DNA of 51,087 nt from positions 1 through 51,087 of the forward strand of contig NZ_JANLGY010000017.1 in the NCBI RefSeq assembly GCF_024653915.1. Direction: 5' to 3'. Position numbers and translations under genes: made by a program. The stretch is from Sulfuricaulis sp. (lineage in GTDB: Bacteria; Pseudomonadota; Gammaproteobacteria; Acidiferrobacterales; Sulfurifustaceae). A model generated the notes under the pieces. It had not been told where the DNA came from, did not search any database, and saw only the letters and a list, made by a program, of their open reading frames with translations. Positions 2,980 to 42,995 of the stretch are shown in pieces (the first letter of the stretch is position 1; each line of letters starts with the position of its first letter).

Positions 2980-3011
2980 TGTTTCTCTTCTTCCATACAA
3001 GGAGTATCAAT

Positions 3012-3062: not shown

Positions 3063-3132
3063 TTTTGAGACAGGTTCTAACAAGATACAGGATGGCCCGC
3101 ATGAGCACAGTCAGATCAGATCGGAGTGAGGC

Positions 3133-9591: not shown

Positions 9592-10911
9592 CTAATAAAC
9601 GTAACTAAACTGAAGGGTGGCGATATTGGTTTCAAAGGTTGCATTCTCGACCTCTGTCGTTCCGGTCCTCACCCCTATCATTTGGGCTCCGATGCCACGG
9701 TTGTATGAGAAATTGAGTTCCGACCGTTTGTTCAGACGAAACCCCGCTCCAACCGTGACATGGTGCTCAATGATGGGAGCAAGCCCGGGATTATTGCCAA
9801 GGTCTTCTTCAACGATTGGTGAAGCGCCATAATTGTACCCGAACATGAATTCCAGGCGATTTGAGAACTTGTAATTGAAGCCCAGTGCGTAGACATCCTG
9901 GTCGTCCCATCCAAGGTTGAGCACCACTTTATCGCCGCTGGATTGCTCTATCAAGGCCAGCTTATCACGTACATCACGGTAATAAATCCGTTTAAGGTCG
10001 AACTCCATCTGTAATTTCGGCGTGGGGGTGTAGGATATTCCGATCCCGGCGCTGGCGGGATCCTCGAAATCAAGATTATATTGCTGAGGAGTCAAGGCGC
10101 ATGGGTCGCATCCCGCCACAACATTTTCTTTTGATGTTGTGAACTTGAATTCTTGAGTGCGAGTCTGGGCGTTATAAGTAGCCCCCAATCGTATGGTGGG
10201 TGTCAGGTTATAGGTTGCGCCGAGTCCCCACACATAGCCCAAATTAAAGTCAGTGGGGGATTTGAAGACGGGGGCTTGTATGCCGAACATGCCCACCGCA
10301 ATGTGCGTGGTGATTCCAAGCGCCAGGTCATCGTTAATTTTAAAGGCGAAGGATGGACCGATACGAAATGACTGACGCACGGCAACAATGGGCCCGTCGG
10401 TGCCGGGGTACTTGCTGAATGTCCCCGCTGGATAGTCCACGCCACCGCCGGATAACGCATAAGCACCCAGCCCGACCGTCACGTTATCGGCGAGGAATAC
10501 ACTTTTAAGGGCAATGGCGCCTGTGGCCAGTACGAACAGGTTATTCTCGCTCGTGACGCCGTTGAGCGTGTTTATCGGATTGAGCACGCTGAGACTCAGA
10601 TCGAAGCGCAAATCATCCTCGCCCAGGTGCAGGAAGGCCAAGCCTGCCGGATTCGTCAAGCCCGTGGTTGCGTCCTGGGGGGTTGCGATGACAGCGCCGG
10701 CCATGGCATTCGAGCGCGCGCTGAAAGCGATCTGCTGATCGCCATTGTTGGCCCATGACGGGCTGGCAGAAATGAGTGCTGCGGTGCACGTGAGGAACAA
10801 GGACCATCGCGTAATAAATCGGGCAGCAACGCCGCCTTCAATGCGAGGTAACTCCGTGATTGCCGACGCTGAGCACATTTCAGGTGCAGTGGGACGACAT
10901 GATCTGGCCAT
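9592..10911 (-). CDS. FadL/OmpP1-type outer-membrane channel protein (paralogue 1)
   Basis: A beta-barrel protein of the FadL/TodX superfamily, which moves hydrophobic compounds across the outer membrane. After a signal peptide (WSLFLTCTAALISASPSWA) the mature part begins NNGDQQIAFSARSNAMAGA and then ATPQDATTGLTNPAGLAFL, with the family's NPAG motif. Alternating amphipathic strands end in an aromatic residue (FSYVY). It is a clear paralogue of the protein at 17422-18621. The start is uncertain: ATG at 10911 or at 10878 gives a long N-region, and neither has a good ribosome-binding site. A sigma-E-like promoter lies about 100 bases upstream (11037-11010). Part of this gene is duplicated as the relic at 7872-7965. 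Confidence 0.85.
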   Translation of the reverse strand: MARSCRPTAPEMCSASAITELPRIEGGVAARFITRWSLFLTCTAALISASPSWANNGDQQIAFSARSNAMAGAVIATPQDATTGLTNPAGLAFLHLGEDDLRFDLSLSVLNPINTLNGVTSENNLFVLATGAIALKSVFLADNVTVGLGAYALSGGGVDYPAGTFSKYPGTDGPIVAVRQSFRIGPSFAFKINDDLALGITTHIAVGMFGIQAPVFKSPTDFNLGYVWGLGATYNLTPTIRLGATYNAQTRTQEFKFTTSKENVVAGCDPCALTPQQYNLDFEDPASAGIGISYTPTPKLQMEFDLKRIYYRDVRDKLALIEQSSGDKVVLNLGWDDQDVYALGFNYKFSNRLEFMFGYNYGASPIVEEDLGNNPGLAPIIEHHVTVGAGFRLNKRSELNFSYNRGIGAQMIGVRTGTTEVENATFETNIATLQFSYVY

Positions 10912-11285
10912 GTTTGTAATTTATTAATTAATAATGATGAATATTTATTGCCAGCCACGGTTCCAGCTGAACAGTAACGGACCGTGGTTCATTCGTTTGT
11001 TATACAGACTTGAACGATCCGGAATCAGAAAAGTTCCTGCTGATTGCAGCGGGGCCTTCGCCAGGATTCGCGACGTGCCATGGGAGGCGAAGCGATGGTG
11101 AGTGGTTCGTGGCAGGTGTGGCTGGCTGGCGTGCGTTGGCGCGCCGCGGGTGCGATCCGGCGCGGGGGCGGCTGAGGCTGGTGCAGGCGGGGTCAGAGGC
11201 GCAACCTCGCACCGCGCACCGAAGAGGCGTGAAGATGGGCCGGGATGCCTTGTTGCGCCGGAAGTTTTCTTACTACCGAATCCAG
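10912..11285. other. 374-bp intergenic region upstream of FadL-type gene 1
   Basis: It holds an AT-rich stretch next to the FadL-type gene (10916-10950) and the ECF-type promoter at 11010-11037. The rest (11040-11285) is GC-rich and has open frames on both strands, but none has a ribosome-binding site, a recognisable domain or a convincing composition, so I call no gene. Confidence 0.5.
11010..11037 (-). promoter_or_regulatory. ECF (sigma-E-like) promoter of FadL-type gene 1
   Basis: On the minus strand GGAACTT (11037-11031) is followed after exactly 15 bases by GTTCAA (11015-11010). This is the E. coli sigma-E layout (GGAACTT, 15-16 bp, GTCAAA-like). The same pattern with the same spacer precedes the ECF sigma gene, FadL-type gene 2 and the CTERM gene at 14410-15009. 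Confidence 0.7.
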
Positions 11286-11963
11286 CTACAAACCTGATCT
11301 GTCTCCGGCACCTCCCGGACGTGCCATGGTAGCCATCAGTCCCAAAAGACCGGAGCCAAAGAGCCACGCGGCGGTGGGCAAGGGAACGGCCGCTGTCGCA
11401 GGCAGCATGCCATCGGATTTTCTGTCTTTGAATTCAATTAATGCGCGGGCATCGGGTTTGCCATCCTGATTCAAGTCCCAGCTCAGGCGTAAATCCTGAA
11501 AATAAGCCTGCGTGGTTCCGGGATTCCGGGATTTGGAAGGATTGATGGGCGCGAAATAATGCTGCCGTGCAGGGTTGGCGTTGTCGGATAGCCGATAAAC
11601 AGAGTCATCGTATGTGCCGAATAATCCATCTGCGCCTCTGTATCGAAGCGTGAAATCAATAATGTCTCCGCCGGAGAACGTGTAAGTACCGCCGACGCGC
11701 GATTTGCCGGTGACAGGGACATACTGGCCTGCCTCTGTAAAACCAAAATCAAACGCTGCACGGCTCGGTAAATCCAGCCGGACTCTGATGGTGACGCTCG
11801 AATTACGGTCGGCGCCATCAACCATCAGGACCCCGGACGGGGTATTGATGAACAACCCGGATGTCGTTGACACCGAGCAGGCCGATGCCGGCGTGAGCGG
11901 GAACACGCAGATCGCCGCGCCGATAACAACCATTGTTCTTTGCAACTTTTGTTTGTGGCACAT
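11286..11963 (-). CDS. VPLPA-CTERM sorted surface protein, unknown ectodomain
   Basis: About 225 residues with a signal peptide (MCHKQKLQRTMVV..., cleavage near PASA-C). The ectodomain contains a calcium-loop-like stretch DLNQDGKPDARALIEF, as in dockerin or thrombospondin-3 repeats. The C-terminal sorting tail is VPLPTAAWLFGSGLLGLM, then TMARPGG. By family, such tails are recognised by an exosortase that cuts and re-anchors the protein; no exosortase gene is in this window. I chose ATG 11963 because GAGG lies 7 bases before it; ATG at 11975 is also possible. It is divergent from the hydrolase at 12049. Confidence 0.75.
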   Translation of the reverse strand: MCHKQKLQRTMVVIGAAICVFPLTPASACSVSTTSGLFINTPSGVLMVDGADRNSSVTIRVRLDLPSRAAFDFGFTEAGQYVPVTGKSRVGGTYTFSGGDIIDFTLRYRGADGLFGTYDDSVYRLSDNANPARQHYFAPINPSKSRNPGTTQAYFQDLRLSWDLNQDGKPDARALIEFKDRKSDGMLPATAAVPLPTAAWLFGSGLLGLMATMARPGGAGDRSGL

Positions 11964-12048
11964 AGGCGGCCTCATTTGTTCCAATGTTCATGCTGAACAG
12001 GTAAATTGCGCATGGCATGATGAACGCTCCGCGAACAAAATATTAACG

Positions 12049-12924
12049 ATGGCAATCCTGGTCCCGGTCGCTGTCCTGTTGCTGATCGTCATGGCAGTGT
12101 TTGCATTTCATCTGCTCATTCATGTCGGCTTGGGCGCCCCGCGGATTCGCGAGCAGGGCATGCCGGATCAGCGTGGGCTGGCGTACCGCGAAGTCGCTAT
12201 CCTGACCGAAAATGACAAGCGCCTGTTTGCCTGGTTCATTCCGGCGCCGAATGACGTTCCCGCGCCGGCCGTAGCGGTGCTGCACGGTTGGGGCGCCAAT
12301 GCCGAAATGATGCTTCCGCTGGCCGCCCCGCTGCACAGTTCCGGTTATGCCGTCCTTCTGTTCGATGCGCGCAATCACGGGAGGAGCGAGGCTGACAGCT
12401 TTTCCTCGTTGCCGCGTTTTGCCGAGGATCTGGAGCACGCTCTCGACTGGCTGGTGCAGCAGCCCGGGGTGGATGCCACCAGAGTGGCCGCCGTGGGCCA
12501 TTCAGTGGGGGCCGGGGCGGCCCTCCTGGTTGCCTCGCGCCGGCGCAATCTGGCAGCCGTGGTCAGCATCGCTGCCTTTGCTCACCCGGAAAGCATGATG
12601 CGGAGATTCCTGGCATCCCGTCACGTCCCTTACTTTCCATTCGGCTGGTATGTGTTGCGCTACGTCCAGCGCGTTATCGGATACCGCTTCGATGATATTG
12701 CGCCATGCAACATCATCCGGCAGATCCTTTGCCCGGTATTGCTTGTGCATGGCGCCAACGACTCCACCGTGCCGGCAACGGACGCAGAATTTATCCATGC
12801 CCGCCGTTCCGGCGACCATGTGCGTCTCCTGCTGTTGGCCGGCAGACACGATTCGTACGATGAGCTGGAATGCAATGCGGGAAAGCTGACGGAATTCCTC
12901 GATCAGGCGACTCGGCGGAAATGA
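12049..12924 (+). CDS. membrane-anchored alpha/beta hydrolase
   Basis: A 291-residue serine hydrolase with an N-terminal membrane helix (MAILVPVAVLLLIVMAVFAFHLLIH). The fold shows the oxyanion strand VAVLHGWGAN, DARNHGRS after it, and the nucleophile elbow GHSVGAG (Ser at about 157). A late Asp lies in HGAND, and the likely catalytic His is in GRHDS near the end. These are the motifs of BAAT/dienelactone/YqkD-like hydrolases. The substrate is unknown. Start ATG 12049 places the helix at the very N-terminus; no strong ribosome-binding site is visible. It is flanked by two CTERM-type surface protein genes on the opposite strand. Confidence 0.8.
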   Translation: MAILVPVAVLLLIVMAVFAFHLLIHVGLGAPRIREQGMPDQRGLAYREVAILTENDKRLFAWFIPAPNDVPAPAVAVLHGWGANAEMMLPLAAPLHSSGYAVLLFDARNHGRSEADSFSSLPRFAEDLEHALDWLVQQPGVDATRVAAVGHSVGAGAALLVASRRRNLAAVVSIAAFAHPESMMRRFLASRHVPYFPFGWYVLRYVQRVIGYRFDDIAPCNIIRQILCPVLLVHGANDSTVPATDAEFIHARRSGDHVRLLLLAGRHDSYDELECNAGKLTEFLDQATRRK

Positions 12925-12939
12925 GATGTTCAGTCCGAA

Positions 12940-14253
12940 TCACCGGGCTTGTCTCTTGCAATCCGGCATTGAGCGCGCATCAGCGCGCTGAGTCGCGGGT
13001 CTGTTGAGGCATGGATTTTTTCTGATGAGAAATACGCCCAGCCAGGCCAGAAACATCAGCAGCAACCACCAGTCGCCCGCCTGCCTGAAATTGCCATTTC
13101 CAGAACTGATGCTGCAACCAAACCGGCCCGACTCTCTATGGTCAAAATCCGGATCTCCGGCAACGTTGTTGCCTACCGCGATGGGGTCGGTGATTGAACC
13201 GTTGGCCACGCCATCCAGATCGGTCGCGGGGTTGCCGTCTGTCAGGGTAATATCCACCGTCCTGGCCCCCACCTTCGTCCACGCAGACGTTGGCAGCAGT
13301 GCATATGCCCCGGCGCTGCCCACTTTATAGATCACCAGTTTGTCGGCTTCGGGTAAATCGGATGAGAACGCCATCCTGACCGTCACGCTCCCGCCGACGG
13401 CGGAGGTAGTAACGTAGCTGACAGTTCCATATGGAAAGGCGACGCGTACGGGGCCACCGGTTGCCGCGCCCGCGCTGACCTGCGTGAGAGACTGGCCTGT
13501 TGCCGTGATGGTTACCGTCTGCCCGTTCGAGACCGCCAACCCCTTGGCGACGCTGGCGTCGGAGGCGGCGCTTCCAGGCTCGATGGCATTGATCACACCG
13601 TCACCATCGCTGTCCGTCGGATTGTTGACATCAGCGCCAACTTCAATGACATCCGATGTGCCGTCGTCGTCCGTATCGCCATCGAGGCCTGTCGGATCCA
13701 GACCCAGGGAGGTGGCTACTGCATCGGAAATGCCGTCCCCATTGCTGTCCGCGCCTGCCAGGACCGCCGTCCCGTTCATGACCGGGGAGACGGTGAGCGG
13801 CAATACACCCACAATGTCTGTCCCGGAGATGCCGTTATTATCGCCGTCTAGCGTGGTAACAGTCAGCGTGTATAGTGTTTTTGTAATTTCCCACTTGATC
13901 GTCGTGGTTGTAGTCGGATTCGCGCCAATCGTGAGGGCATAAGTACCGGTATAGGTACCATCGCCATTATCGGTAAGTGTGAACGCCCCGCCAAACGAGT
14001 AGGAAAATCCCACGCTCAACATACCGGTTGTCGGACTGACAGGCGCCATACTGAATGTCCCGGCATCGAAATCGAAACTCCATGCATTATTTGGGTTCGT
14101 CGTGCTTGTGCCGAGAGTTACTCCGTTGGTTCCGTTAAGTATCGTAAGCGAATGAGTGCCCGAGTACTGGCCGGTAAGTCCGGCGGTGCCTGCCTGGGCC
14201 ATGGTGTTGAAGACAAGCATGATAATTGCCAGGAAAACCGGAAGTTTTTTCAT
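12940..14253 (-). CDS. secreted protein with TSP3-like Ca2+ repeats, choice-of-anchor-type domain and non-VPLPA CTERM tail
   Basis: 437 residues from ATG 14253 (MKKLPVFLAIIMLVFNTMAQA signal peptide). The N-terminal domain (about 22-165) is clearly homologous to the next protein at 14410-15009 (GTSTTNPNNAWSF, DNGDGTYTGTY, SPVMNGTA). Calcium-type repeats follow (ADSNGDGISDA, DGDTDDDGTSDVIE, TDSDGDGVINAIEPG). A domain ending DLDGVANGSITDPIAVG resembles choice-of-anchor U domains. The C-terminus has FGCSISSGN, then a hydrophobic helix (WWLLLMFLAWLGVFLI) and a basic tail. That is a Cys-bearing CTERM layout different from VPLPA and closer to JDVT- or GlyGly-CTERM types; this class assignment is inference. 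It ends 15 bases from the hydrolase stop (convergent). Confidence 0.75.
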   Translation of the reverse strand: MKKLPVFLAIIMLVFNTMAQAGTAGLTGQYSGTHSLTILNGTNGVTLGTSTTNPNNAWSFDFDAGTFSMAPVSPTTGMLSVGFSYSFGGAFTLTDNGDGTYTGTYALTIGANPTTTTTIKWEITKTLYTLTVTTLDGDNNGISGTDIVGVLPLTVSPVMNGTAVLAGADSNGDGISDAVATSLGLDPTGLDGDTDDDGTSDVIEVGADVNNPTDSDGDGVINAIEPGSAASDASVAKGLAVSNGQTVTITATGQSLTQVSAGAATGGPVRVAFPYGTVSYVTTSAVGGSVTVRMAFSSDLPEADKLVIYKVGSAGAYALLPTSAWTKVGARTVDITLTDGNPATDLDGVANGSITDPIAVGNNVAGDPDFDHRESGRFGCSISSGNGNFRQAGDWWLLLMFLAWLGVFLIRKNPCLNRPATQRADARSMPDCKRQAR

Positions 14254-14340
14254 TTTACGTACCTTAAAAGAATCTTGTACGGGAAATTCGCAGGGAGCAG
14301 GGGGAGAAGCAGGCCTGGTGCGGTGAGTTTCACACAACGA

Positions 14341-14378
14341 CCTGCAGATGTGCTCCATACAGACAGCACATCCGCAGG
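14341..14378. repeat. 14-bp inverted repeat between two CTERM-type genes
   Basis: CCTGCAGATGTGCT (14341-14354) pairs with AGCACATCCGCAGG (14365-14378), with one wobble pair and a 10-base loop. The right arm can instead pair with downstream sequence (ATCCGCA with TGCGGAT, 14371-14389). No T-run follows on either strand, so it is more likely an mRNA-stabilising or processing hairpin between the two minus-strand genes than a simple terminator. Confidence 0.6.
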
Positions 14379-14409
14379 CAATTGCGGATCACATCACTCT
14401 GTTTGCTGA

Positions 14410-15009
14410 TTACGACGTCTTGCGACGGCGCGCAACTCCTGCCAGACCGAGCAGGCCCGAGCCAAGCAGCCATGCCGCGGCCGGAATTGGAACCGCCGAT
14501 ACCGACCCCGATGCCGTGCCATCCATAACCGGCGAGATAGTGCCGAAAATGTTGGTAAAGCTGGTGCCGTTGATACCGTTAGGTTCGGTGTCCAGGGTGA
14601 CCAGGGTGACGGTGGTTCCGACCAGCGTGACGTCCCAGGTGGTGGTGGTGGCGACTGCCGGCGCGGGACCGAAACCAAAGGAATAGGAGCCGGTGTAGGT
14701 GCCGTTGCCATTGTCGACCAGTGCGCCGCTTATGGGTGTGTAGCTAAAACCAGTGGTTAACATGCCACCGGCCGCACTAAAGGAGCCGCTGCCACCGCTG
14801 AAAGTGAAGCTCCAGGCATTGCTCGGGTTGGTCGTGCTTGTTCCGAGTACGACTCCAGGCGGAGCTGTTGCCGCATTAAGCAAAGTCAGCGAATACGTGC
14901 CTGAAGCGGTGCCGGTGATACCGACCGTACCCGCCTGGGCAACGCCGGCGCTTCCAACGACTGCGCATGCAAGTAATGCAGATAAAGTTGTTTTCGTCTT
15001 TGTTTTCAT
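14410..15009 (-). CDS. VPLPA-CTERM sorted surface protein
   Basis: 199 residues from ATG 15009, chosen because GGAGG lies 8 bases before it. A signal peptide (MKTKTKTTLSALLACAVVGS..., cleavage AQA-G) is followed by a Thr/Gly-rich beta-type domain of about 140 residues homologous to the N-terminus of the protein at 12940-14253. The sorting tail is VPIPAAAWLLGSGLLGLAG, then VARRRKTS. An ECF-type promoter lies 225 bases upstream (15263-15236). It is probably a surface-attached or released exosortase substrate; the role of the domain is unknown. Confidence 0.82.
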   Translation of the reverse strand: MKTKTKTTLSALLACAVVGSAGVAQAGTVGITGTASGTYSLTLLNAATAPPGVVLGTSTTNPSNAWSFTFSGGSGSFSAAGGMLTTGFSYTPISGALVDNGNGTYTGSYSFGFGPAPAVATTTTWDVTLVGTTVTLVTLDTEPNGINGTSFTNIFGTISPVMDGTASGSVSAVPIPAAAWLLGSGLLGLAGVARRRKTS

Positions 15010-15235
15010 CTTGAAAGCCTCCATCACAATGTTTAGTGTAAGTAAATTAAAGTTGGTTATTCAGGGTTTACGCCAGTTGGCGTAAGCGATCCTTGCCTGA
15101 AATGCTCCATAACATCAGCGACGGAAATTGCGACATAAAAATAATGACGCAGATGGCTTATCTTGCCCGCGAGTTCGAGGTGAGGACCAGCGCTCATAAC
15201 GTACTGACTGACCTGACCCGGCCGTTCGTGTTTAG

Positions 15236-15263
15236 TTAAACGATTCCGAAACTGGAAAGTTCC
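15236..15263 (-). promoter_or_regulatory. ECF (sigma-E-like) promoter of the CTERM gene 14410-15009
   Basis: On the minus strand GGAACTT (15263-15257), a 15-base spacer and GTTTAA (15241-15236). The spacer TCCAGTTTCGGAATC resembles that of the promoter at 11010-11037 (TTCTGATTCCGGATC). The predicted leader is long, about 220 bases. Confidence 0.65.
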
Positions 15264-15511
15264 GGATGGGAATGGGCCCCCACATGGGCGTTTCCTCCGG
15301 AAAACACCATATAAAAACAGCTATGCCATTAATTTACTTGACGAAAGAAATGCACACCTAGGGCGATCATTATTCGAATGCGGTGGCTTGATGCGGCGCA
15401 TCGTGCGGTGACGACTGGCTTGGTGCGGTCGGAGCATGGCCACTTCTGTAAGACGTAATGGGCAGCGCGGTGATCTTCCGTGTAAATTTTCATATTTAGC
15501 GACCGGAAACG

Positions 15512-15539
15512 GGAACTTTCCCCTCGTCGTTTCGTTAAA
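15512..15539 (+). promoter_or_regulatory. ECF (sigma-E-like) autoregulatory promoter
   Basis: GGAACTT (15512-15518), a 15-base spacer, then GTTAAA (15534-15539), a near-match to the E. coli sigma-E consensus. It sits directly upstream of the ECF sigma operon, as expected if the sigma factor transcribes its own gene. Confidence 0.75.
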
Positions 15540-15684
15540 ATCCTGAGCAGAATCAAGGAGCGGACAACTGCGTGACTTGGCGGTTATACTTGCTGGCGTG
15601 AATACAATTTGCTTGTTGCCGAATCGCATGAGATCCGGCTCGATTCACGCGCCGGGCTGGGCCAGACTTGATGCTGTGATATTG

Positions 15685-16239
15685 ATGCAACAATTGACTG
15701 ACCCGGAATGTGTTTCTCTTTGTCAAAAAGGGAAACCCGATGCTTTTGACGAACTGGTTCGACGTTATCAAGATCGTCTCTACCGTTTCATCCTGCGCAT
15801 GGTCGGTTCGCGCGAAGAGGCCCTGGAGCTGACCCAGGATACCCTGTTGAAGGCTTTCCAGGGGCTTTCACAGTGGCGGCCGGAGGCGCTGTTTCGCACC
15901 TGGCTGTTCCAGATCGCCAGCAATACCGCTATCGACAGTCTGCGGCAGCGCAAGCGAATGAATAATATTTCCATCGATGAACAGCACGATTTGGCTGATC
16001 ATTGTGCCGGGCCGGAACGCCTACTATACATAAGCGAGCAATGCCAAAACTTGGAACAGGCGCTTGACAAGTTACCGCACGATTTCTGCCAGGTACTTTT
16101 GCTTCGCGAATTCGAAGAGATGTCCTACAGTGAAATTGCGGAAACTTTGAACATCAACGTGGGAACGGTTAAATCGCGTTTGGCACGAGGGCGCACGATG
16201 TTGTTGGCGCTGTGCCGGCGTGACGAGGAAAAAGAGTAA
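15685..16239 (+). CDS. ECF RNA polymerase sigma factor (RpoE-like)
   Basis: 184 residues. Region 2 spans about 10-80 (GKPDAFDELVRRYQDRLYRF, ALELTQDTLLKAFQGL) and region 4 about 125-175 (LDKLPHDFCQVLLLREFEEM, SYSEIAETLNINVGTVKSRLARGR). It directs polymerase to GGAACTT/GTT-type promoters as sigma-E does. ATG 15685 gives the usual family N-terminus MQQLTD but has no ribosome-binding site. GTG 15598 in the same frame, coupled to a 9-codon leader with AAGGAG, is a real alternative. The next gene, an anti-sigma factor, overlaps by one base. Probable targets are itself, both FadL-type genes and the CTERM gene at 14410. Confidence 0.9.
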   Translation: MQQLTDPECVSLCQKGKPDAFDELVRRYQDRLYRFILRMVGSREEALELTQDTLLKAFQGLSQWRPEALFRTWLFQIASNTAIDSLRQRKRMNNISIDEQHDLADHCAGPERLLYISEQCQNLEQALDKLPHDFCQVLLLREFEEMSYSEIAETLNINVGTVKSRLARGRTMLLALCRRDEEKE

Positions 16240-16736
16240 TGCAAAGACGGATGAACAGCGAGGTAAAGACCATGGAAGGCAACACCATGAAACAGAGTTG
16301 TGCCCACCTTGTCGATCTGTCCCCGTATATGGACGGCGAGTTATCCACATTGGCGCGCGATCAGATCAAGGCGCATCTGTCGGATTGCGCTGAATGTAAC
16401 GAACGCCTGGGCCAGTTGATCGCGCTGCGGCGGGATGTAGCCGAACTCGGAAACGTGACCGTTGGTTTCGATCTCGCGCCCCGCCTGCGTTACCGCCTGA
16501 GGGTATCGTCACAAGTGCCGGCTCCATGGTCAGTCAAACCATGGCGCTGGTTGCCGCTGTCATTGGCCGCCACCATCTCGACAGTTGCCTTCGGGGTCTT
16601 TCTCGGCAGCGCGCTGACGCATGCAAGCGATGGCGTGGCCGGCACCTCGACGTCCGCCATGTCGTTGTTTGACCCTATCCCGCCCGGAGGCATCTGTCTC
16701 AGTGTTCGGCCGTGTCGATTGCATGGAAAAAGTTGA
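16239..16736 (+). CDS. membrane anti-sigma factor with zinc-finger (zf-HC2/ZAS) domain
   Basis: 165 residues. The N-terminal anti-sigma domain has CAHLVDLSPYMDGELS and the zinc motif HLSDCAEC (H-x3-C-x2-C). A single membrane helix follows (about 103-125, WLPLSLAATISTVAFGVFLG), then a short periplasmic tail. It should hold the upstream sigma factor inactive until an envelope signal arrives. ATG 16239 overlaps the sigma stop codon and has GAGG 8 bases before it; ATGs at 16272 and 16287 are possible internal starts. The next gene begins on the following base. Confidence 0.87.
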   Translation: MQRRMNSEVKTMEGNTMKQSCAHLVDLSPYMDGELSTLARDQIKAHLSDCAECNERLGQLIALRRDVAELGNVTVGFDLAPRLRYRLRVSSQVPAPWSVKPWRWLPLSLAATISTVAFGVFLGSALTHASDGVAGTSTSAMSLFDPIPPGGICLSVRPCRLHGKS

Positions 16737-17183
16737 ATGAAACGTTACTGGCTGTATGTGCTGCTCACCCTGTCCATTTTGCTAAATGTGGGCGTCCTGG
16801 GAGCAGTGGGTTACAACGTATTAAAACATGACGCCCCCCACCTTGAGGACTACCTGAAGCTCACGGAACCCCAGCGCCGACAGTGGCATGAGATGGAGCG
16901 GGGTTTCATGTCCGAGCTCAATGCGACGTGGATTGACATCCGCACCCACCGCGAGCGCATGATCCGTCTTATCTTTTCGTTTCCGCCGCAGCCGGATGTG
17001 GCGGCCATCGAAGCAGAACGCGCAGCTATTTCCCGGTTGCAGGAAAGCCAGCAGCGCCGGTTGATTGACCAGCTGATGGCAGAACGCGGCATACTCGACC
17101 CCTCGCAGCGTAAGGCGTTGACCGAATTGCTCATCAGCCAGGAGCCGGCCATCACGATGGAAGAGCGGTTACACGGCAAGTAA
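16737..17183 (+). CDS. periplasmic CpxP/ZraP-like metal-resistance sensor protein
   Basis: 148 residues with an N-terminal membrane helix or uncleaved signal (MKRYWLYVLLTLSILLNVGVLG). A helical domain (TEPQRRQWHEMERGFMSEL, ERAAISRLQESQQRRLIDQL, DPSQRKALTELLISQE) fits the heavy-metal-resistance (CnrX/ZraP/Spy-like) family. It directly follows the anti-sigma gene with no gap. In characterised systems such as CnrYXH the periplasmic sensor binds metal and relieves anti-sigma inhibition, which suggests this trio responds to a metal or envelope stress. The family match is from fold pattern only. Confidence 0.75.
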   Translation: MKRYWLYVLLTLSILLNVGVLGAVGYNVLKHDAPHLEDYLKLTEPQRRQWHEMERGFMSELNATWIDIRTHRERMIRLIFSFPPQPDVAAIEAERAAISRLQESQQRRLIDQLMAERGILDPSQRKALTELLISQEPAITMEERLHGK

Positions 17184-17302
17184 AAACAAGAAGTAAAAGG
17201 ACAACACAGTTCCCCGTCCTTACCTGAAACATCTCCGCGGCTGACACAGGCTGTCGCGCCAGCAGAGATGCTGCCAAATTGGATTACGCGCCCCTCCATC
17301 CG

Positions 17303-17330
17303 GGAACATTATTCACGGCCTGACGTTTAA
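17303..17330 (+). promoter_or_regulatory. ECF (sigma-E-like) promoter of FadL-type gene 2
   Basis: GGAACAT (17303-17309), a 15-base spacer and GTTTAA (17325-17330), with the gene start 92 bases downstream. It has one mismatch from GGAACTT but the same spacing as the other three sites. Confidence 0.65.
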
Positions 17331-17421: not shown

Positions 17422-18621
17422 ATGCGGCTGACAAAAAGATTGATTGCCGTGGCGTGCCTGATGGCAGCCACTCCTGCATCAGTATCCGCTAATAATGGCG
17501 ACCAGATGGTTGGCTATAGCGGCCTGTCCAACGCCATGGGTGGCGCCGTGGTGGCAACACCGCAGGATGTTTCAACCGTCCTCAGCAACCCCGCCGGCCT
17601 TGCATTTCTGCATATGGGTGATGAGCACACGCGGTTCGATATGAACCTCGCGGTGCTGAATCCGAACCGCATCATGAATGGCATTGAGAGCGACAGCAGC
17701 GCCTTCGTGATGGCGAGCGGCGGTTTCGCGTTCCAGAGTGAATCATACGGCGATCGGGTGACGATCGGTGTCGGGGCCTATCCGATCTCGGGAGGCGGTG
17801 TTGACTTTCCCGTCGGTTCGCTGAAATTGGGTAGCGGAACTTATTCGGTTGTGGCCAGCCGCATGTCACTGCGTATCGGTCCGGGATTTTCCTACAAGGT
17901 TAATCCCGATCTTGCGATTGGCGCGAACCTGAACCTGGCTGTGAACCAGATGTCGGTCAAGACCTTTAATGCGATGACCTCAACATCAACGACGTATCCC
18001 CAGGACGTTGCTTATGGCTATTCCTACGTTCTGGGCACGGTGTACCAGCTCAGCAACAAGTTGCGGCTGGGCGCCGCCTATACCAGCCGCTCGCACATCG
18101 AGGATCTCGAATGGAACATGGACAATGGCAAGTGGAATCTGTCATTCCAGGATCCTCAGACGGCGGCGGTCGGGCTCTCCTTTCAGCCCAATGACAGATT
18201 GCAGCTTGAGGCGGACGTGAAATGGATTGATTTCAGCGGTGTCCGCACATCGGCCACGCTCATCGGACCGACATCCAGCCAGGTTCTGGCGTATGGCTGG
18301 GAAGATCAGACAGTGTATGCGCTCGGCATGAAATACCGTTCCAACGACTCCGTCACCCTCATGGCCGGCTACAACTATGGCAAATCGCCGCTCGACGCAA
18401 GCGATGTCAACAATAACGTTGGCGTCACCGCCATCGTGGAACACCACCTATCGGCGGGAGTCAGCGTGCGCGCCAGCAAGTATTCGACGCTCAACTTCTC
18501 GGTCATTCACGGTTTCGAGAATGAACTGACGGCAACGTCGAATCTGCCGGGGCAGACAACGCCCACAAATGTTAGTTTCGAGACGAATTTGCTGACATTA
18601 CAGTTCACCTATCAGCATTAG
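17422..18621 (+). CDS. FadL/OmpP1-type outer-membrane channel protein (paralogue 2)
   Basis: 399 residues from ATG 17422 (AAGGGGCG just upstream). A signal peptide (MRLTKRLIAVACLMAATPASVSA) is followed by NNGDQMVGYSGLSNAMGGA and LSNPAGLAFL. It is homologous along its whole length to the protein at 9592-10911, with shared NNGDQ, NPAGLAFLH, YPISGGGVDFP-type, AIVEHH and C-terminal TLQFTYQ segments. It should form an outer-membrane barrel with an N-terminal hatch for a hydrophobic substrate. It has its own sigma-E-like promoter and lies between the ECF operon and the cytochrome cluster, so it may feed substrate to that cluster. Confidence 0.87.
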   Translation: MRLTKRLIAVACLMAATPASVSANNGDQMVGYSGLSNAMGGAVVATPQDVSTVLSNPAGLAFLHMGDEHTRFDMNLAVLNPNRIMNGIESDSSAFVMASGGFAFQSESYGDRVTIGVGAYPISGGGVDFPVGSLKLGSGTYSVVASRMSLRIGPGFSYKVNPDLAIGANLNLAVNQMSVKTFNAMTSTSTTYPQDVAYGYSYVLGTVYQLSNKLRLGAAYTSRSHIEDLEWNMDNGKWNLSFQDPQTAAVGLSFQPNDRLQLEADVKWIDFSGVRTSATLIGPTSSQVLAYGWEDQTVYALGMKYRSNDSVTLMAGYNYGKSPLDASDVNNNVGVTAIVEHHLSAGVSVRASKYSTLNFSVIHGFENELTATSNLPGQTTPTNVSFETNLLTLQFTYQH

Positions 18622-18649
18622 ATGGAGACACAGTTACTCGCTGTCACAC

Positions 18650-18663
18650 GTGATCCAAATCAC
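18650..18663. promoter_or_regulatory. FNR/CRP-family operator-like palindrome
   Basis: GTGAT-CCAA-ATCAC is a 14-bp interrupted palindrome matching the FNR/DNR core TGAT-N4-ATCA. It is one base off the CRP pattern TGTGA-N6-TCACA. It lies 23 bases before the start of the cytochrome/rhodanese gene, so it could control that gene in response to oxygen or NO if the transcription start is close. Confidence 0.4.
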
Positions 18664-18686
18664 AACCAACCTATGGAGCAAGTGTA

Positions 18687-20324
18687 ATGACAAATATTAA
18701 ACATGGTTCTTCCCTGCCGGGCAGAAAATGGGTTCATGCCCTTGTATTGGGCGCAGTCGTGACCCTTGGCGCCACGGCTTGTGTAATGCCGAAGATTGAC
18801 ACGGCGATTCCGGATACCGGCTGGAACACGAGCCACGAAGACGCCCTGAGTCCGCACACGCAACTGGCGCTCGGTGTAATGCAGGCAATGAAGGATGACG
18901 CTAACGCGGTTCCGATGGATGCGCGCCCGGCGCTTGCCCGCCAGTGGCAGAAGCTGGCCGATTTAATCGGCGCCAAGGCATTGCCCGCTGAAATCAATAG
19001 TGCCCGGCGCGAAGTCGAGCACGCCCTGAACCGGGAATTGCTCGACAAGATCAAGGCGGGCCGGGCCAACAAGGCAGACCTGATGTCATTTATGATGGGC
19101 AGTGGCATGAAGATCCCAAAGGGCGGTATTGGCAGCATGAATCCTGATCATGTGGCCGCCGTCAAGGTGGTGGAATCGCTTCAGAGTGGTGGCGTGGCAA
19201 AGGCAGAATACGAAGTGAAGCAGGTTCCCCCTGACCAGGCGCTGTCGCCCATGGAGAGCCTGACACTCGGCACCGTCATCCTGCTGGACAAAGACCGTGA
19301 CTCCTTCGAAATGTCGCAGGTGTTCAAACTGGCGCTTTACTTTCGTCCGCTGCGCCGGCTGTACGACCCCAGTCCTGATCTGGTCAAAATCAACGATCCG
19401 CGCATCGAAACTGTCTACATGGATCGCATCTGGCGCGTACTGAAACCGGAACAGATCAAGCATATTCGCGAGATAAACGCGACCCGCAAGGACATGGATG
19501 ATTATCTGGCGAAGCACGCCGGGCTCCATGGCGTTGATCCGCGCAAGACCCCGACATTCGCGCTGCTCGAATATGCCGTCAACGACTTTCATGAGCAGAT
19601 TGCACCACCGAACACGATCGCCGCCAAGGACAAGCCCGAGTTCTTCATTCCAGCAAGTCTTAAGGCGCTCAGCGGCAAGAACCCTGGCGATGGCCAAAAG
19701 ATTTTTGAAGGCGTGTGTGCCTCGTGCCATGGTGTTGACGGACAAGGACGGTTCCCGCCGATTACATTGCAATCCTACCTTGTGCTGCACAGCGATCACG
19801 AGCACTTCGAAATCATCAAGGCTGGTCCGCCGCAGAAACCGGGTGCACCGGTTGTGATGCCTACCTTCGCCAATCAGCTTACCGCTGACCAGATATGGGC
19901 GATTACGAAGTATCTCCGTTCCTGGGAGAAAAAGTGGAGCAATGGTAGCGCCACGCTGCGCGGCAAGGCCGATGCCATAAAGGCTGGCGTGAAGTTCTAT
20001 AGCGCGGGCGAAGTGCATGAAATGTGGAAATCGAAGAACAAGAACGTTCTGCTCCTCGACCTCCAGAGTGACATTGCCTTCCGTATCATGGGCCACATCC
20101 CAGGCGCGTTGCATATCCCCGTCGAGGAATTCGCTGGCAAAATGAATGGCTTGCCGAAAGACAAGGAGCTCATCGTGATCGACATGTTCGGATCCGAAGG
20201 TTTCCCCCCGGCAAGACAACTGCTCGAGCGGGGATACAAGGTCTCGTACATGGATAACGGAATGCAAGAATGGAATATCCAGCGTAACTATCCCGTGACA
20301 CACAAGTACGTGGCACCACAGTGA
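18687..20324 (+). CDS. exported cytochrome c fused to a cysteine-less rhodanese domain
   Basis: 545 residues. The N-terminal export signal ends in a possible lipobox (LGATAC, Cys at about 32). A helical region of about 290 residues follows that I do not recognise. Then come a class I cytochrome c domain (about 345-410: haem motif CASCH, axial Met probably in VVMPTF) and a rhodanese-like domain (about 440-535: VLLLDLQSDIAFRIMGHIPG, ALHIPVEEF). The rhodanese catalytic Cys is absent: the loop reads LIVIDMFGSEGF where active enzymes have a Cys. It probably acts in the periplasm, passing electrons, with the rhodanese fold as a binding module. GGAG at 18675 supports the start. A strong terminator follows at 20373. 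Confidence 0.82.
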   Translation: MTNIKHGSSLPGRKWVHALVLGAVVTLGATACVMPKIDTAIPDTGWNTSHEDALSPHTQLALGVMQAMKDDANAVPMDARPALARQWQKLADLIGAKALPAEINSARREVEHALNRELLDKIKAGRANKADLMSFMMGSGMKIPKGGIGSMNPDHVAAVKVVESLQSGGVAKAEYEVKQVPPDQALSPMESLTLGTVILLDKDRDSFEMSQVFKLALYFRPLRRLYDPSPDLVKINDPRIETVYMDRIWRVLKPEQIKHIREINATRKDMDDYLAKHAGLHGVDPRKTPTFALLEYAVNDFHEQIAPPNTIAAKDKPEFFIPASLKALSGKNPGDGQKIFEGVCASCHGVDGQGRFPPITLQSYLVLHSDHEHFEIIKAGPPQKPGAPVVMPTFANQLTADQIWAITKYLRSWEKKWSNGSATLRGKADAIKAGVKFYSAGEVHEMWKSKNKNVLLLDLQSDIAFRIMGHIPGALHIPVEEFAGKMNGLPKDKELIVIDMFGSEGFPPARQLLERGYKVSYMDNGMQEWNIQRNYPVTHKYVAPQ

Positions 20325-20372
20325 CACACGGACAGCAAACTGTGCGGCGCATGCTTCGAACGTAAAGGTGTG

Positions 20373-20424
20373 GCGGGTCGGTTGGTGAACTAGTCTACAG
20401 AAGCCACCGACCCGCATCTTTTTT
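20373..20424 (+). terminator. rho-independent terminator
   Basis: GCGGGTCGGT (20373-20382) pairs perfectly with ACCGACCCGC (20406-20415). The stem can extend by two GC pairs past a one-base bulge, and ATCTTTTTT follows. It ends transcription of the cytochrome/rhodanese gene and separates it from the haem-protein operon starting at 20473. Confidence 0.9.
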
Positions 20425-20472
20425 CATCAAGGTCAGCCACTTGTACCTATTTATTTACAAGGAGAAAAAATC

Positions 20473-21048
20473 ATGAAACTGAACAGACTTGTTGCCACGG
20501 CAATCCTGGTTGGGGCGTCAACGATGAGTCTTCCAGTTGTCGCGGGAGATGCCCCTCCGGTAGATGACGTAAAAGCGGTCGCTGGAAACTACGCCAAGCA
20601 ACTTAAGTCGGCGCTACTCGAAGCCATGACCAAAGAGGGTCCGGAGAAGGCAATGAGCGTCTGTTCCGAGAAAGCGGTACAGATCGGCAACGAGACAGCG
20701 CGCCAGACTGGCTGGTCCTTGCGGCGCGTCACGACTAAGGCGCGCAATCCGCTGAACATGCCGGATGCCTACGAGACCGCCGTGCTTGGTGACTTCGAGA
20801 AGATTCTCGCGAGCGGTAAGGAAGACGCCGCGCGTTACGAGGTTGTTACCGAAAGCGGCGTCCGTTATGCGCGATTCACGAAGGCGCTGAAGATCGAACC
20901 GTTGTGCTTAACGTGTCACGGCGTCAATGAAGCGGTGGCGCCGGGTGTGCGTGATCGCCTAGCCAAATTGTATCCACACGACCGGGCTCGTGGCTACCAG
21001 CTAAACGAACTGCGCGGTGCGCTTTCCATCAAGATCAGGCTCGATTAG
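20473..21048 (+). CDS. periplasmic Tll0287-like (DUF3365) haem protein
   Basis: 191 residues with a signal peptide (MKLNRLVATAILVGASTMSLPVVA-GDAP). The sensor-like fold is typical of Tll0287/DUF3365 proteins (KAMSVCSEKAVQIG, GWSLRRVTTKARNPLNMPD) and the haem motif CLTCHG lies at about 154-159. In this family one c-type haem is bound in a PAS-like domain thought to sense redox or gas. AAGGAG lies just before the ATG. It begins a run of co-directional genes through 23883. Confidence 0.82.
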   Translation: MKLNRLVATAILVGASTMSLPVVAGDAPPVDDVKAVAGNYAKQLKSALLEAMTKEGPEKAMSVCSEKAVQIGNETARQTGWSLRRVTTKARNPLNMPDAYETAVLGDFEKILASGKEDAARYEVVTESGVRYARFTKALKIEPLCLTCHGVNEAVAPGVRDRLAKLYPHDRARGYQLNELRGALSIKIRLD

Positions 21049-21058
21049 GAGATAGTCC

Positions 21059-21565
21059 GTGATAAACAGAAAGAAGCTTCACAAGTATGCCGGACGTTAT
21101 TTGCTGGTGGCGTTTCTCGCCGCTGGCTTTATGGCTCCCGCACACGCGGAACAACCGAAACCCGTCTCTTCAAAGCTTACACCGCGGCTCAAACAGCTCC
21201 TGAGCGAGGAGATGCAGATGATCAAGCAGGCCATGAAACAGATCCTGGACGGTTTGATTGTCGGCGATCATCCGCTTGTTGCCACAAACGCCGAGCAGAT
21301 TTATTCGAGTTACATTCTCGCGCGTGAGTTGACGCCGAAGGACAAGGCGGACCTGATGAAGGCGCCACCGGAATTTCTGCAACTCGACGGGGAGTTTCAC
21401 GAGATCGCCAAAAAGCTTGCGCAGGCCGGGAAACAGAAGGACTACGAACTGCAGCGTTTTTATTATGGACGGCTTGTTGATTCCTGCCAGGGTTGCCACA
21501 GTCGCTATGTGACCGACAAGTTCCCGGCGTTCTCGGGAGCTCAACCAGGGGGCCACACGCACTGA
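21059..21565 (+). CDS. cytochrome c'-like small periplasmic haem protein
   Basis: 168 residues, GTG start at 21059 with AGGAG at 21047-21051 overlapping the previous stop region. A signal peptide (..LLVAFLAAGFMAPAHA-EQPK) is followed by a four-helix-like domain with the haem motif CQGCHSRY near the C-terminus (about 147-154), the place where class II cytochromes c' carry it. It is paralogous in layout to the protein at 23051-23659. It is probably a one-haem electron carrier or gas-binding protein; the partner is unknown. Confidence 0.75.
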   Translation: MINRKKLHKYAGRYLLVAFLAAGFMAPAHAEQPKPVSSKLTPRLKQLLSEEMQMIKQAMKQILDGLIVGDHPLVATNAEQIYSSYILARELTPKDKADLMKAPPEFLQLDGEFHEIAKKLAQAGKQKDYELQRFYYGRLVDSCQGCHSRYVTDKFPAFSGAQPGGHTH

Positions 21566-21647
21566 AAGCGACACCTTAATGGTTAATTCAGTAGGCAGCG
21601 GCGTCACAAGGCGGCCGCGTGATTTCAGATACTTTGACGAGGCATGT

Positions 21648-22157
21648 ATGGCAGATATGGAAAAAAATTCCTGGATTCCAGGCTTATTTCTGGCGATGAC
21701 GTGGCTGTATGCCCCGGGGGCATTGGCGGCGGATGATCATGCCGCGCATAGTCACGAATCGCATGCTGCGCATGGTGAACCACAGGCGCTCTCGCTCAAC
21801 AACGGCAAGAAATGGATCACCGATGAGCCGCTGCGCCGAGGCATGGGCAATATCCGCGATGCCATAGAGCGCCATCGTCATGTGACACATGCTGGCAAGC
21901 CGACAGCGGCGCAGTACACAACGCTTGCCAAGAACATCCATGCCGAAGCTGGTTATATTTTCCAGAACTGCAAGCTTGACAAGAAGGCCGATGAAGCGCT
22001 GCACGTTATTCTCGCGGATGTTCTCAGCAGTGCTGCCGCGATTGAGGGCAGGCAAAAGGGCGTGAGCCGTGAGCGGGGCGTGGCCAGAGTTGCTGGCGCG
22101 CTTGATCGTTATGGCCGTTCCTTCGATCATTCCGGTTGGGAACCGGCCAACAAGTAG
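21648..22157 (+). CDS. His-rich periplasmic helical protein, unknown function
   Basis: 169 residues from ATG 21648 (ACGAGG just upstream; ATG 21657 also possible). A signal peptide ends near ALAA. A His-rich linker (DDHAAHSHESHAAHGEP) is a likely metal-binding stretch. The helical domain (LSLNNGKKWITDEPLRRGM, AEAGYIFQNCKLDKKADEAL, FDHSGWE) has no CxxCH motif, so it should not bind haem covalently. Its position between two cytochrome-type genes suggests metal delivery or a structural role in the same periplasmic system. No characterised family is recognised. Confidence 0.65.
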   Translation: MADMEKNSWIPGLFLAMTWLYAPGALAADDHAAHSHESHAAHGEPQALSLNNGKKWITDEPLRRGMGNIRDAIERHRHVTHAGKPTAAQYTTLAKNIHAEAGYIFQNCKLDKKADEALHVILADVLSSAAAIEGRQKGVSRERGVARVAGALDRYGRSFDHSGWEPANK

Positions 22158-22194
22158 CGAGCGCCCGGTAACTCGTATGAGGAGGAATTATCCC

Positions 22195-22986
22195 ATGCCC
22201 GCACAGCGGCCGAGCAAGGCTGCGGTTGTATGTTGTGTCGGAGTCGCTGCGGTGTTGGTGTTAGCGGTGTTGGTGTTAGAGGTGTCGCAGGCCGCGCACC
22301 CCTTGATCACGGAGGATACTGGCACTCAAGGCCACAGTAATCTCCAGTTTGAGCTTACCGCTGAACGCAGCGATGACACGGCCGATGGCACCAATAAACA
22401 GGCAGTGCAGTCAAACGCGGTACTTGCCTATGGTGCGCGTGACAATCTCGATCTGCTCTTCACGCTGCCGCACAAGCGCGAGCGCAGTGAGACAGATGGC
22501 AGTATCGACGTGGTCAGCGGGTGGGGCGACGCCGGGCTCGACCTCAAGTGGCGTTTCTATGAACGCGGTAGCTTGAGTTTTGCACTCAAGCCGGGCGTTA
22601 CCTTGCCGACTGGTGACGAGGCCCGTGGCCTCGGCACTGGCCGCGCGGCTTACAGTCTGTTCCTTGTCACTTCGTTCGATCTGTCGCCATGGGCCTTCCA
22701 TATTCAGCTCGGCCATTACGAAAACCGCAACGTTAATGACGAGCAGGTCGATCTGCAACACTTTTCGCTTGCCGCCACGCGTGAGTATGGACAGCTGAAG
22801 GTGGTAGCCGATCTAGGGACCATTACCAATACCGACAAGACTTCGAATAACAATCCGGCATTTTCCATTGTTGGTTTGATTTATGCCGTGAACAAGTCAC
22901 TAGAACTCGATATCGGCTATATGAAGGGCGTTAGTTATACGGAAGCAGACCATAGTCTGATGGGCGGGGCAACGTTCAGATTCTGA
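22195..22986 (+). CDS. outer-membrane beta-barrel protein, phenol MetA-type (PF13557-like)
   Basis: 263 residues from ATG 22195, chosen for AGGAGGAAT just upstream. The signal peptide contains a tandem VLVLAVLVLEV repeat. The mature part starts HPLITEDTGTQG and continues with strands typical of the MetA-pathway/transporter barrel family (NAVLAYGARDNLDLLFTLPH, GDAGLDLKWRFYE, LKPGVTLPTGDEARGLGTG), ending in GGATFRF with a C-terminal Phe. It is likely an outer-membrane channel serving the surrounding haem proteins. The exact substrate is unknown. Confidence 0.75.
   Translation: MPAQRPSKAAVVCCVGVAAVLVLAVLVLEVSQAAHPLITEDTGTQGHSNLQFELTAERSDDTADGTNKQAVQSNAVLAYGARDNLDLLFTLPHKRERSETDGSIDVVSGWGDAGLDLKWRFYERGSLSFALKPGVTLPTGDEARGLGTGRAAYSLFLVTSFDLSPWAFHIQLGHYENRNVNDEQVDLQHFSLAATREYGQLKVVADLGTITNTDKTSNNNPAFSIVGLIYAVNKSLELDIGYMKGVSYTEADHSLMGGATFRF
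22249..22278 (+). repeat. two perfect 15-bp tandem repeats inside a signal peptide
   Basis: The unit GCGGTGTTGGTGTTA occurs twice in a row and encodes AVLVL-type repeats in the hydrophobic core of the signal peptide. Slippage would change the length by five residues without a frameshift. Confidence 0.8.
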
Positions 22987-23050
22987 TCTATCGCGGCGCG
23001 CAGAACGATAACACGGGAGCTGATCTAGACCCACGCGAACAGAGACGGAC

Positions 23051-23659
23051 ATGTCAGGAAGATACAAAGAACACCTCTGGGCATGTGTCGTCGCGTTGGC
23101 GCTGGTTGTGGTCACATCGGTGCGTGCCGCCGAACGGGTGGCGAACAGCAAAACTGCCGATTCTCTTCAACAGATGATGATGAGCTATAAGCCGGAGCTT
23201 AAACAGAAGGTTATGCAGCTATCGCCTGAAATGCGCGCGACCATCAAGAAGTTGCATGATAGCCATACGCGTAAAAGCCAGCAGCTCACGTTGCGCCAAA
23301 TCATGCACGAGATCCTGTCAGACTACCAGAGTATTGCCGCTGGCATCGCCACCGACAATGCCGAGCAGGCGGCCGACAGCGCGCGACGCTTGGCCAATCA
23401 CCGCATTCCCAAGGGCGGTTTATTCCCGTACTTCCCGCTCGACATGGTCAACGACGCCGACATGAGTGTGTTGCCGATCATGAACAACGCGGTCGAGGGC
23501 AGCGCACTCAAACTTGCGACGGCGGCCGAGAAGGGTGACATGGCCACGGCGGCGGCGCGTCTGAGCGACATCATGACTGGTTGCGTCGCCTGTCACCAGA
23601 AGTTCCGCAGCAGTCCGCCCGGCGCGACCACGTTGTTGCTTTATACATCCCGAAAATAG
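23051..23659 (+). CDS. cytochrome c'-like periplasmic haem protein
   Basis: 202 residues with a signal peptide (..WACVVALALVVVTSVRA-AERV). Helices (LTLRQIMHEILSDYQSIAAG, AARLSDIMTGCVACHQKF) place the haem motif CVACH at about 179-183 near the C-terminus, as in class II cytochromes. A Phe/Tyr-rich loop (KGGLFPYFPLDMVND) lies in the middle. It is the second such protein in the cluster after the one at 21059; the two may form a pair of carriers or a donor and acceptor. Confidence 0.75.
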   Translation: MSGRYKEHLWACVVALALVVVTSVRAAERVANSKTADSLQQMMMSYKPELKQKVMQLSPEMRATIKKLHDSHTRKSQQLTLRQIMHEILSDYQSIAAGIATDNAEQAADSARRLANHRIPKGGLFPYFPLDMVNDADMSVLPIMNNAVEGSALKLATAAEKGDMATAAARLSDIMTGCVACHQKFRSSPPGATTLLLYTSRK

Positions 23660-23910: not shown

Positions 23911-23942
23911 ACTGGCGGCGGATTTCGTCGCCAGTATTTTTT
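23911..23942 (+). terminator. rho-independent terminator closing the haem-protein cluster
   Basis: ACTGGCG plus GCG (23911-23920) pairs with CGT plus CGCCAGT across a GATTT loop, followed by ATTTTTT. It lies 28 bases after the DUF2892 gene. Confidence 0.88.
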
Positions 23943-39257: not shown

Positions 39258-39284
39258 CTATTTCCATGGAGATAGGGGGGCATA

Positions 39285-42990: not shown

Positions 42991-42995
42991 GGTAC

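Follow-up and report, generated by a model that had tools for sequence, protein, structure and literature searches.

In a 51,087-nucleotide stretch of the genome of a Sulfuricaulis sp. (contig NZ_JANLGY010000017.1, hereafter the window), a gene for an extracytoplasmic function (ECF) sigma factor is followed by genes for an anti-sigma factor and a probable periplasmic sensor. The locus raises the question of which genes this sigma factor controls and which signal sets it free. A first-pass annotation, made from the letters alone, had proposed one ECF sigma regulon with four promoters, that of the sigma gene among them. Based on the distribution of the promoter motif as well as on a comparison with four related loci, we conclude that the window very probably encodes a self-contained, auto-activated ECF sigma regulon with the wiring described below, because the motif is confined to four sites in this genome and because the three-gene cassette and two of the sites recur in all five genomes compared (5/5).

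The promoter motif is confined to four sites at the sigma factor locus

The pattern GGAACNT-N15-GTTNAA has four exact matches in the window, where 0.01 would be expected from shuffled sequences (Table 1). Our pattern search bears out the sites, coordinates and strands of the first-pass annotation, including the invariant 15-base spacer between GGAACNT and GTTNAA (4/4) and the sequence GGAACTT in three of the four sites; the fourth has GGAACAT. Allowing one mismatch adds no site in the window beyond these. The whole genome (2,730,503 bases in 31 contigs) holds the exact motif four times, each time at the window locus, while the reversed pattern used as a control is absent from it (n = 0). At one mismatch, 36 places are found genome-wide (the four exact ones included) versus 31 for the control, which is a background level at which no further regulon members can be claimed. 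The four exact matches all lie upstream of the genes named, within 6.3 kb. Of the 32 one-mismatch places, 26 were extracted as loci, and 25 of these 26 overlap an open reading frame (ORF) of at least 90 amino acids (aa). The exact string by itself is no proof, and it is not very rare; what constitutes evidence is its clustering upstream of four genes in 6.3 kb.

The sigma factor cassette and two of its promoters are conserved in four other genomes

Relatives of the sigma factor were sought in 56 other genomes of the order (E value 1e-33) and in 368 other genomes drawn from the class (E 1e-36). Close relatives occur in two of the 56 (G015, 75% identity; G006, 47%) and in two of the 368 (G070, 53%; G217, 44%). 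All four share the gene order sigma factor, zf-HC2 anti-sigma factor, PF13801 sensor, with both partners over the Pfam cut-offs. Of 369 class genomes, a profile built from the five sensors matches three, and these are the ones matched by the sigma query. The order-level search around G070 covered one genome. Plasmid searches returned no sensor match and 16 sigma matches, none of more than 41% identity, and the 37 generic ECF loci from the related-locus search (22-41% identity) were not used.

The two-box motif is present in 4/4 relatives, before the sigma gene and again 3′ of the sensor gene. Between the sensor stop codon and the second site there are 119 bases in the window, compared with 69 in G015, 3 in G006, 26 in G070 and 18 in G217. 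Only 8 bases separate the end of the first site from the listed sigma gene ATG in G006, so that the true start may be further into the gene. With the motif before the sigma gene in 5/5 genomes and a zf-HC2 gene next to it in 5/5, the sequences have the arrangement of an autoregulated ECF sigma factor, and the five-genome comparison supports the single regulon with four promoters that had been proposed.

A tally of all GGAAC-Nx-CGTT pairs across the window and the four related loci gives 13 at x = 16, versus 9 in total at x = 12-15 and 17-20. Twelve of the 13 are regulon sites; the remaining one (L063 10844), inside an ORF away from the cassette, was not used. The eight sites of the relatives are those pairs with CGTT at spacing 16, GGAAC pairs with other −10 words or spacings being left out. 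Over the 12 sites, the refined element reads GGAAC-WWW-N13-CGTT, with A or T at positions 6-8 in 12/12, C at position 10 in 10/12 and C at position 22 in 12/12 (the relatives' eight sites were preselected with CGTT, the window's four were not). A weight matrix built from the relatives' eight sites places the window's four at ranks 1-4 (scores in Table 1; the next place scores 10.1). With the converse matrix, built from the window's four, the relatives' two sites take the top two ranks in L062, L129 and L130.

Several observations weigh against this conclusion. The exact string occurs 23 times in 19 related genomes (0-3 per genome; 8 for the reversed control), once at a sigma locus and seven times as one near-identical sequence. 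Random sequence reaches the score of the fadL2 site, 13.7, at 20 places in 4 Mb, and in 135 kb of other sequence of the same genome one place (L144, without GGAAC) scores 14.1, the next scoring 11.5; since the fadL2 site is not special by score, it rests on the exact pattern and the conserved position. In L063, the first site ranks first by the window matrix, but the second comes only fourth. The matrix test is moreover not blind, the relatives' sites having been chosen with a related pattern (the x-spacing count used every pair), and S. limicola (G005), a sulfur oxidiser of the same genus, has no sigma match at E 1e-33. We nonetheless regard it as hardly credible that the matches arose by chance and that the autoregulatory site alone is real: a string found about once per related genome and an unremarkable fadL2 score speak for it, but against it stand four genome-wide matches that all fall within 6.3 kb and upstream of genes, and two sites at matching positions in 4/4 relatives.

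The same data bear on which sigma factor would read the sites. If they belonged to the envelope-stress sigma factor RpoE/AlgU, and the linked ECF sigma factor had other targets, the −10 box should resemble that of RpoE promoters (ECF02), which we take to be TCTAA-like; instead, it is CGTT in 12/12 sites. Extended by a terminal A, the refined motif has seven matches in the five carrier genomes, 7/7 at the sigma locus, versus four in 15 genomes without the sigma factor (this pattern misses the sites of G006 and G070 and one of G015; its reversed controls give 13 matches across all 20 genomes). The −35 box does fit, GGAACTT being that of E. coli RpoE (PMC8103513), and one or more ECF-type matches turned up in 59 of the 60 genomes searched. 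On the −10 box and the carrier-specific motif, we rejected RpoE/AlgU as the reader of the sites and consider this explanation very improbable.

The cassette encodes a group IV sigma factor, a zf-HC2 anti-sigma factor and a CnrX-fold sensor

The sigma factor has sigma-70 regions 2 and 4 only, as expected of group IV, whose members have about 170-200 aa (Sigma70_r2 at residues 60-127, Sigma70_r4_2 at 157-209; TIGR02937 at 114 bits, cut-off 42.9). The linked anti-sigma gene of the first-pass annotation proves to encode a zf-HC2 protein of class I (ZAS, zf-HC2), with PF13490 over its cut-off in 5/5 genomes and H46, C50 and C53 invariant. Its membrane helix is read from the sequence, the structure model being poor (mean predicted local distance difference test score, pLDDT, 55.5) and usable only at residues ~20-75. 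The PPG-x2-C-x5-C motif, invariant in 5/5 genomes, stands at the C-terminal, probably periplasmic, end.

The sensor matches PF13801 over the cut-off in 5/5 genomes. Its structure model (mean pLDDT 75.6) has CnrX as best Foldseek match, with a probability of 1.00 but an E value of 0.02, and no match is under 0.001; the alignment with CnrX gives a Z score of 11.0 over 101 residues (root-mean-square deviation 2.6), a value that helical hairpins can reach without kinship. Spy and CpxP are likewise among the structural matches. By sequence, the five-sensor profile matches NccX (E 3.8e-4) and CnrX (E 8e-4), and three-row profiles found nothing better than E 0.015 in the PDB.

These matches, with CnrX best by structure and profile, would suit a regulon that is real and responds to a transition metal, as a metal-resistance switch of the CnrYXH type. 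The residues do not. The Co/Ni ligands of CnrX, which we take to be, next to Met123, His119, His42 and His46 and presumably Glu63 (a mutant of which is named in PDB titles), are not found as a set in the sensor: His119 aligns with Gln112, invariant in 5/5; the His42 position holds His in 2/5 and the His46 position in 0/5 (gapped; the window protein has His31 and His35 nearby); and Glu63, aligned with Glu54 and kept in 5/5, is the sole ligand position retained. Met123 aligns with Glu116, also invariant in 5/5 (the aligned PDB chain is the M123A mutant, and NccX has Met there). In CnrX, Met123 is required for signalling, and the layout of sigma factor, membrane anti-sigma factor and periplasmic sensor is that of CnrYXH (PMC7689651). 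No efflux or metal-resistance gene was found among the genes scanned after the motifs, and the anti-sigma factor is of the zf-HC2 type, whereas CnrY is of class II (PMC8103513). A metal signal is thus unlikely in our judgement. Of the "metal sensor" named by the first-pass annotation, the CnrX fold and PF13801 stand, but the key ligand positions hold Glu and Gln, so that metal sensing is doubtful.

Based on this cassette, we propose a self-amplifying switch. At rest, the sigma factor would be kept at the inner membrane by the anti-sigma factor. It would be freed by a periplasmic signal that is perceived by the sensor, by the paired C-terminal cysteines of the anti-sigma factor or by both. The free sigma factor would amplify its own expression and switch on outer-membrane channels, periplasmic c-type cytochromes and, in the host genome, a PEP-CTERM surface protein. 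Most likely, the signal would have to do with reduced sulfur or the redox state of the periplasm and not with Ni/Co.

The predicted regulon includes a cytochrome gene set and a FadL and PEP-CTERM branch

Table 1. Predicted promoters, genes and terminator of the regulon, with positions in the window
Feature	Position	Strand	Evidence and remarks
Predicted sigma-dependent promoter of the ECF sigma gene (autoregulation)	15512..15539	+	Exact motif; score 29.3, rank 1 with relatives-only matrix; same position in 4/4 relatives
Predicted promoter of fadL2 and of the cytochrome genes after it	17303..17330	+	Exact motif; score 13.7, rank 4; site just 3′ of sensor gene in 4/4 relatives
Predicted promoter of the VPLPA-CTERM gene, probably also of the one after it	15236..15263	-	Exact motif; score 17.2, rank 3
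Predicted promoter of fadL1	11010..11037	-	Exact motif; score 18.1, rank 2
ECF sigma factor	15577..16239	+	Sigma70_r2 and Sigma70_r4_2 above cut-off; start uncertain, TTG 15577 to ATG 15685
zf-HC2 anti-sigma factor	16239..16736	+	PF13490 above cut-off; H-x3-C-x2-C and C-terminal PPG-x2-C-x5-C invariant in 5/5
Probable membrane-anchored periplasmic sensor, CnrX/Spy-like helical hairpin	16737..17183	+	PF13801 above cut-off; CnrX best model match
fadL2, FadL-type outer-membrane barrel	17422..18621	+	PF03349, 93.6 bits; ATG 17422, ORF open from 17374; 41% identical to fadL1
Cytochrome c-rhodanese fusion	18687..20324	+	PF00034 and PF00581 above cut-off
Tll0287-like protein	20473..21048	+	PF11845
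Cytochrome c′-like protein	21059..21565	+	PF01322, 25.9 bits, just below cut-off of 26.5
Unnamed His-rich exported protein	21579..22157	+	True start perhaps near 21651; tblastn and alignment show homologues next to the cassette of G015 and G217
Outer-membrane protein, Phenol_MetA_deg family	22069..22986	+	PF13557; start possibly about 22177; homologue in G015
Cytochrome c′-like protein	23051..23659	+	PF01322, 26.8 bits (cut-off 26.5); 89% identical over 164 aa in G015
Terminator-like stem after the gene set	23911..23935	+	Strong stem of 11 pairs, T tail
fadL1, FadL-type outer-membrane barrel	9592..10911	-	PF03349, 76.9 bits
VPLPA-CTERM exported protein	14410..15009	-	TIGR03370, 34.6 bits (cut-off 25.35); ATG 15009 with GGAGG ahead
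Choice-of-anchor U protein	12940..14253	-	NF041766, 81.6 bits; JDVT-CTERM-like tail 18.5, below cut-off of 27

The ATG of fadL2 lies 91 bases 3′ of its promoter site, and from fadL2 to position 23659 every gene lies on the plus strand, no gap exceeding 148 bases. The promoter probably drives these seven genes, mostly for cytochromes (17422-23659), as one transcript. The first-pass annotation had given fadL2 as the target; the promoter does precede fadL2, but the set is broader, the colinear cytochrome genes up to the terminator-like stem having been omitted.

The promoters of fadL1 and of the CTERM gene face away from the cassette. The choice-of-anchor U gene is probably in the same operon as the VPLPA-CTERM gene, 156 bases after it, and the N-terminal part of its product is a paralogue of the CTERM protein (49% identity over 164 aa). 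Domain models confirm the FadL-type and CTERM families assigned earlier: the CTERM protein is a PEP-CTERM/exosortase substrate by TIGR03370, and the genome encodes one exosortase (Exosortase_EpsH, 261.7 bits), which could process it. Sigma-54 control of the CTERM gene was considered and rejected, no −24/−12 match being found ahead of it in a weak scan (26 matches vs 33 in shuffles).

Other genes of the window lie outside these sets. A CTERM-like gene without an ECF site stands between fadL1 and the CTERM operon (11286-11984, minus strand), and a pattern search shows a run of six more VPLPA-type CTERM genes at 38523-43931, none with the exact ECF motif ahead. At 330-7736, the translations suggest consecutive genes for a pair of two-component regulators, a membrane-fusion-like protein, parts of an ABC exporter and a TolC-like protein, again with no exact motif.

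Sulfur oxidation genes follow the second promoter in two relatives

In G015 and G070, the second site is followed by a porin-like gene and then by genes for SoxX, SoxA and SoxY; in both genomes, each of these three exceeds its NCBIfam equivalog cut-off. The porin-like genes are 54% identical to each other (PF07396 falls just short of its cut-off in G015, and the G070 protein has no Pfam match). After SoxY, both genomes have a relative of the 21059 protein (29-30% identity, E 1e-8 and 5e-7), and G015 also has homologues of the 21579, 22069 and 23051 proteins. By this comparison, the tail of the gene set is common to the window and G015, with fadL2, the cytochrome/rhodanese gene and the Tll0287-like gene replacing the porin and sox genes. 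In G217, the second site is followed by a homologue of the 21579 protein. The His-rich exported family to which that protein belongs lies beside the sigma cassette in three genomes (window 21579-22157, L062 8368-8871, L130 6369-6866); it has no Pfam match (window and G217 members) and no NCBIfam match (window member). G217 also carries genes for a dihaem cytochrome c and a DUF1924 protein directly upstream of the sigma cassette (L130 8541-9480).

The first-pass annotation had read the locus as a stress-responsive programme for hydrophobic-compound channels. This is not the common theme, the relatives' cassette preceding porin, soxX, soxA and soxY genes or those of other exported proteins. Given that in two relatives soxX, soxA and soxY stand behind the matching promoter, and that the host genus Sulfuricaulis is sulfur-oxidising (PMC5024460), a sulfur or redox programme appears more plausible than general stress. 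The programme probably concerns periplasmic electron transfer in a sulfur oxidiser and is broader than channels and a surface protein. To a link between the signal itself and sulfur, we give nearly an even chance.

Some findings pull the other way. The second site of G006 leads to a DUF6448 gene and not to sox or porin genes, so the sulfur theme is not universal. In the host genome, contig C14 carries soxB, soxA and soxZ, while C1 carries another soxZ, and each of these contigs ends in a piece of SoxY; the soxABZ genes are on another contig than the window, one without the exact motif. FadL1, FadL2, the three CTERM-type proteins, the cytochrome/rhodanese protein and the Tll0287-like protein have no tblastn match (E 1e-3) in the relatives' four 16-18-kb loci, to which the search was confined, and to date only the window locus has shown a FadL and PEP-CTERM branch. 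As a separate observation, soxZ and a soxY fragment end both contigs of the host (L141 8949-9510 on C1; L142 8558-9018 on C14), as if two sox copies had broken the assembly at a sequence that they share.

A signal of general periplasmic misfolding or redox stress, read by a Spy/CpxP-like sensor and not connected with sulfur, would account for Spy and CpxP among the structural matches, for the conserved C-terminal cysteine pair of the anti-sigma factor and for outputs that vary across genomes. It sits less well with soxX, soxA and soxY after the site in 2/4 relatives and with scanned outputs that are mostly c-type cytochromes and outer-membrane proteins, with no chaperone or protease among them; we consider it possible, though rather unlikely. 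For the regulon as a whole, a further-reaching proposal would be a patchily distributed, undescribed ECF module (sigma factor, zf-HC2 anti-sigma factor with a periplasmic Cys pair, CnrX-fold sensor without the metal site) that would sense sulfur in reduced or elemental form, or the redox changes it causes, in the periplasm and match the outer membrane to it, by means of Sox and porins in some hosts and of FadL, cytochrome/rhodanese and PEP-CTERM proteins here. This broad proposal is a somewhat doubtful one. The predicted regulon is small; its promoter code is clear, and all four promoters can be tested.

Comparison with known systems

In Proteobacteria, the control of PEP-CTERM genes usually involves sigma-54 and PrsK/PrsR (PMC1569441). 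That system and ours are alike in dedicating regulation to PEP-CTERM genes; PrsK/PrsR acts with sigma-54 and an enhancer site (PMC1569441), whereas the CTERM gene of the window has a predicted ECF-type promoter and, in our weak scan, no −24/−12 match. A full-text search of the open-licence literature found no paper that names both "ECF sigma factor" and "PEP-CTERM"; the first-pass annotation had called a link of an ECF sigma factor to CTERM and FadL-type genes unusual. As far as this search shows, the locus would provide the first link of an ECF sigma factor to PEP-CTERM proteins. In the same literature, none of the papers on ECF with FadL (among the matches listed, the best 15 of 392) or with sox describes the system, as judged by title and start of abstract.

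Control of sox genes by ECF sigma factors has a parallel in Arcobacter butzleri, where, by expression data and assays, one of sigma2 and sigma7 activates and the other represses them; their regulons comprise many metabolic genes, and the text contains none of the words promoter, motif and consensus (PMC3445524). The ECF26 regulons of RpoE4/SigE in Sinorhizobium and Starkeya resemble ours in that an ECF sigma factor and its anti-sigma factor lie beside and control sulfur-oxidation genes, in that case for sulfite oxidase, and in a similar two-box promoter; they differ in a −35 box GGAAT, a −10 box CGTC and the targets sorAB/sorT, and a CnrX-like third gene goes unmentioned in the part of the text available (PMC6527743). 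The regulon sites compared here have GGAAC and CGTT in 12/12, and no sor gene is among the proteins scanned, which sets this sigma factor apart from ECF26.

The cassette order of the window differs from that of cnrYXH, presumably, if the latter is taken from the name. Otherwise, the closest likeness is to CnrYXH of Cupriavidus metallidurans (CnrH sigma factor, CnrY anti-sigma factor, CnrX sensor), which is likewise a three-part ECF switch with a membrane anti-sigma factor and a homologous helical-hairpin sensor (PMC7689651); the window differs from it in its zf-HC2 anti-sigma factor, in a sensor without the CnrX ligand residues and in the lack of an efflux pump among the genes scanned, and is not a CnrYXH system in the strict sense. 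A CnrX fold with other invariant residues could show how this fold reads signals other than metals, and the locus, if our proposal holds true, would represent a sulfur-linked ECF switch with a CnrX-type sensor.

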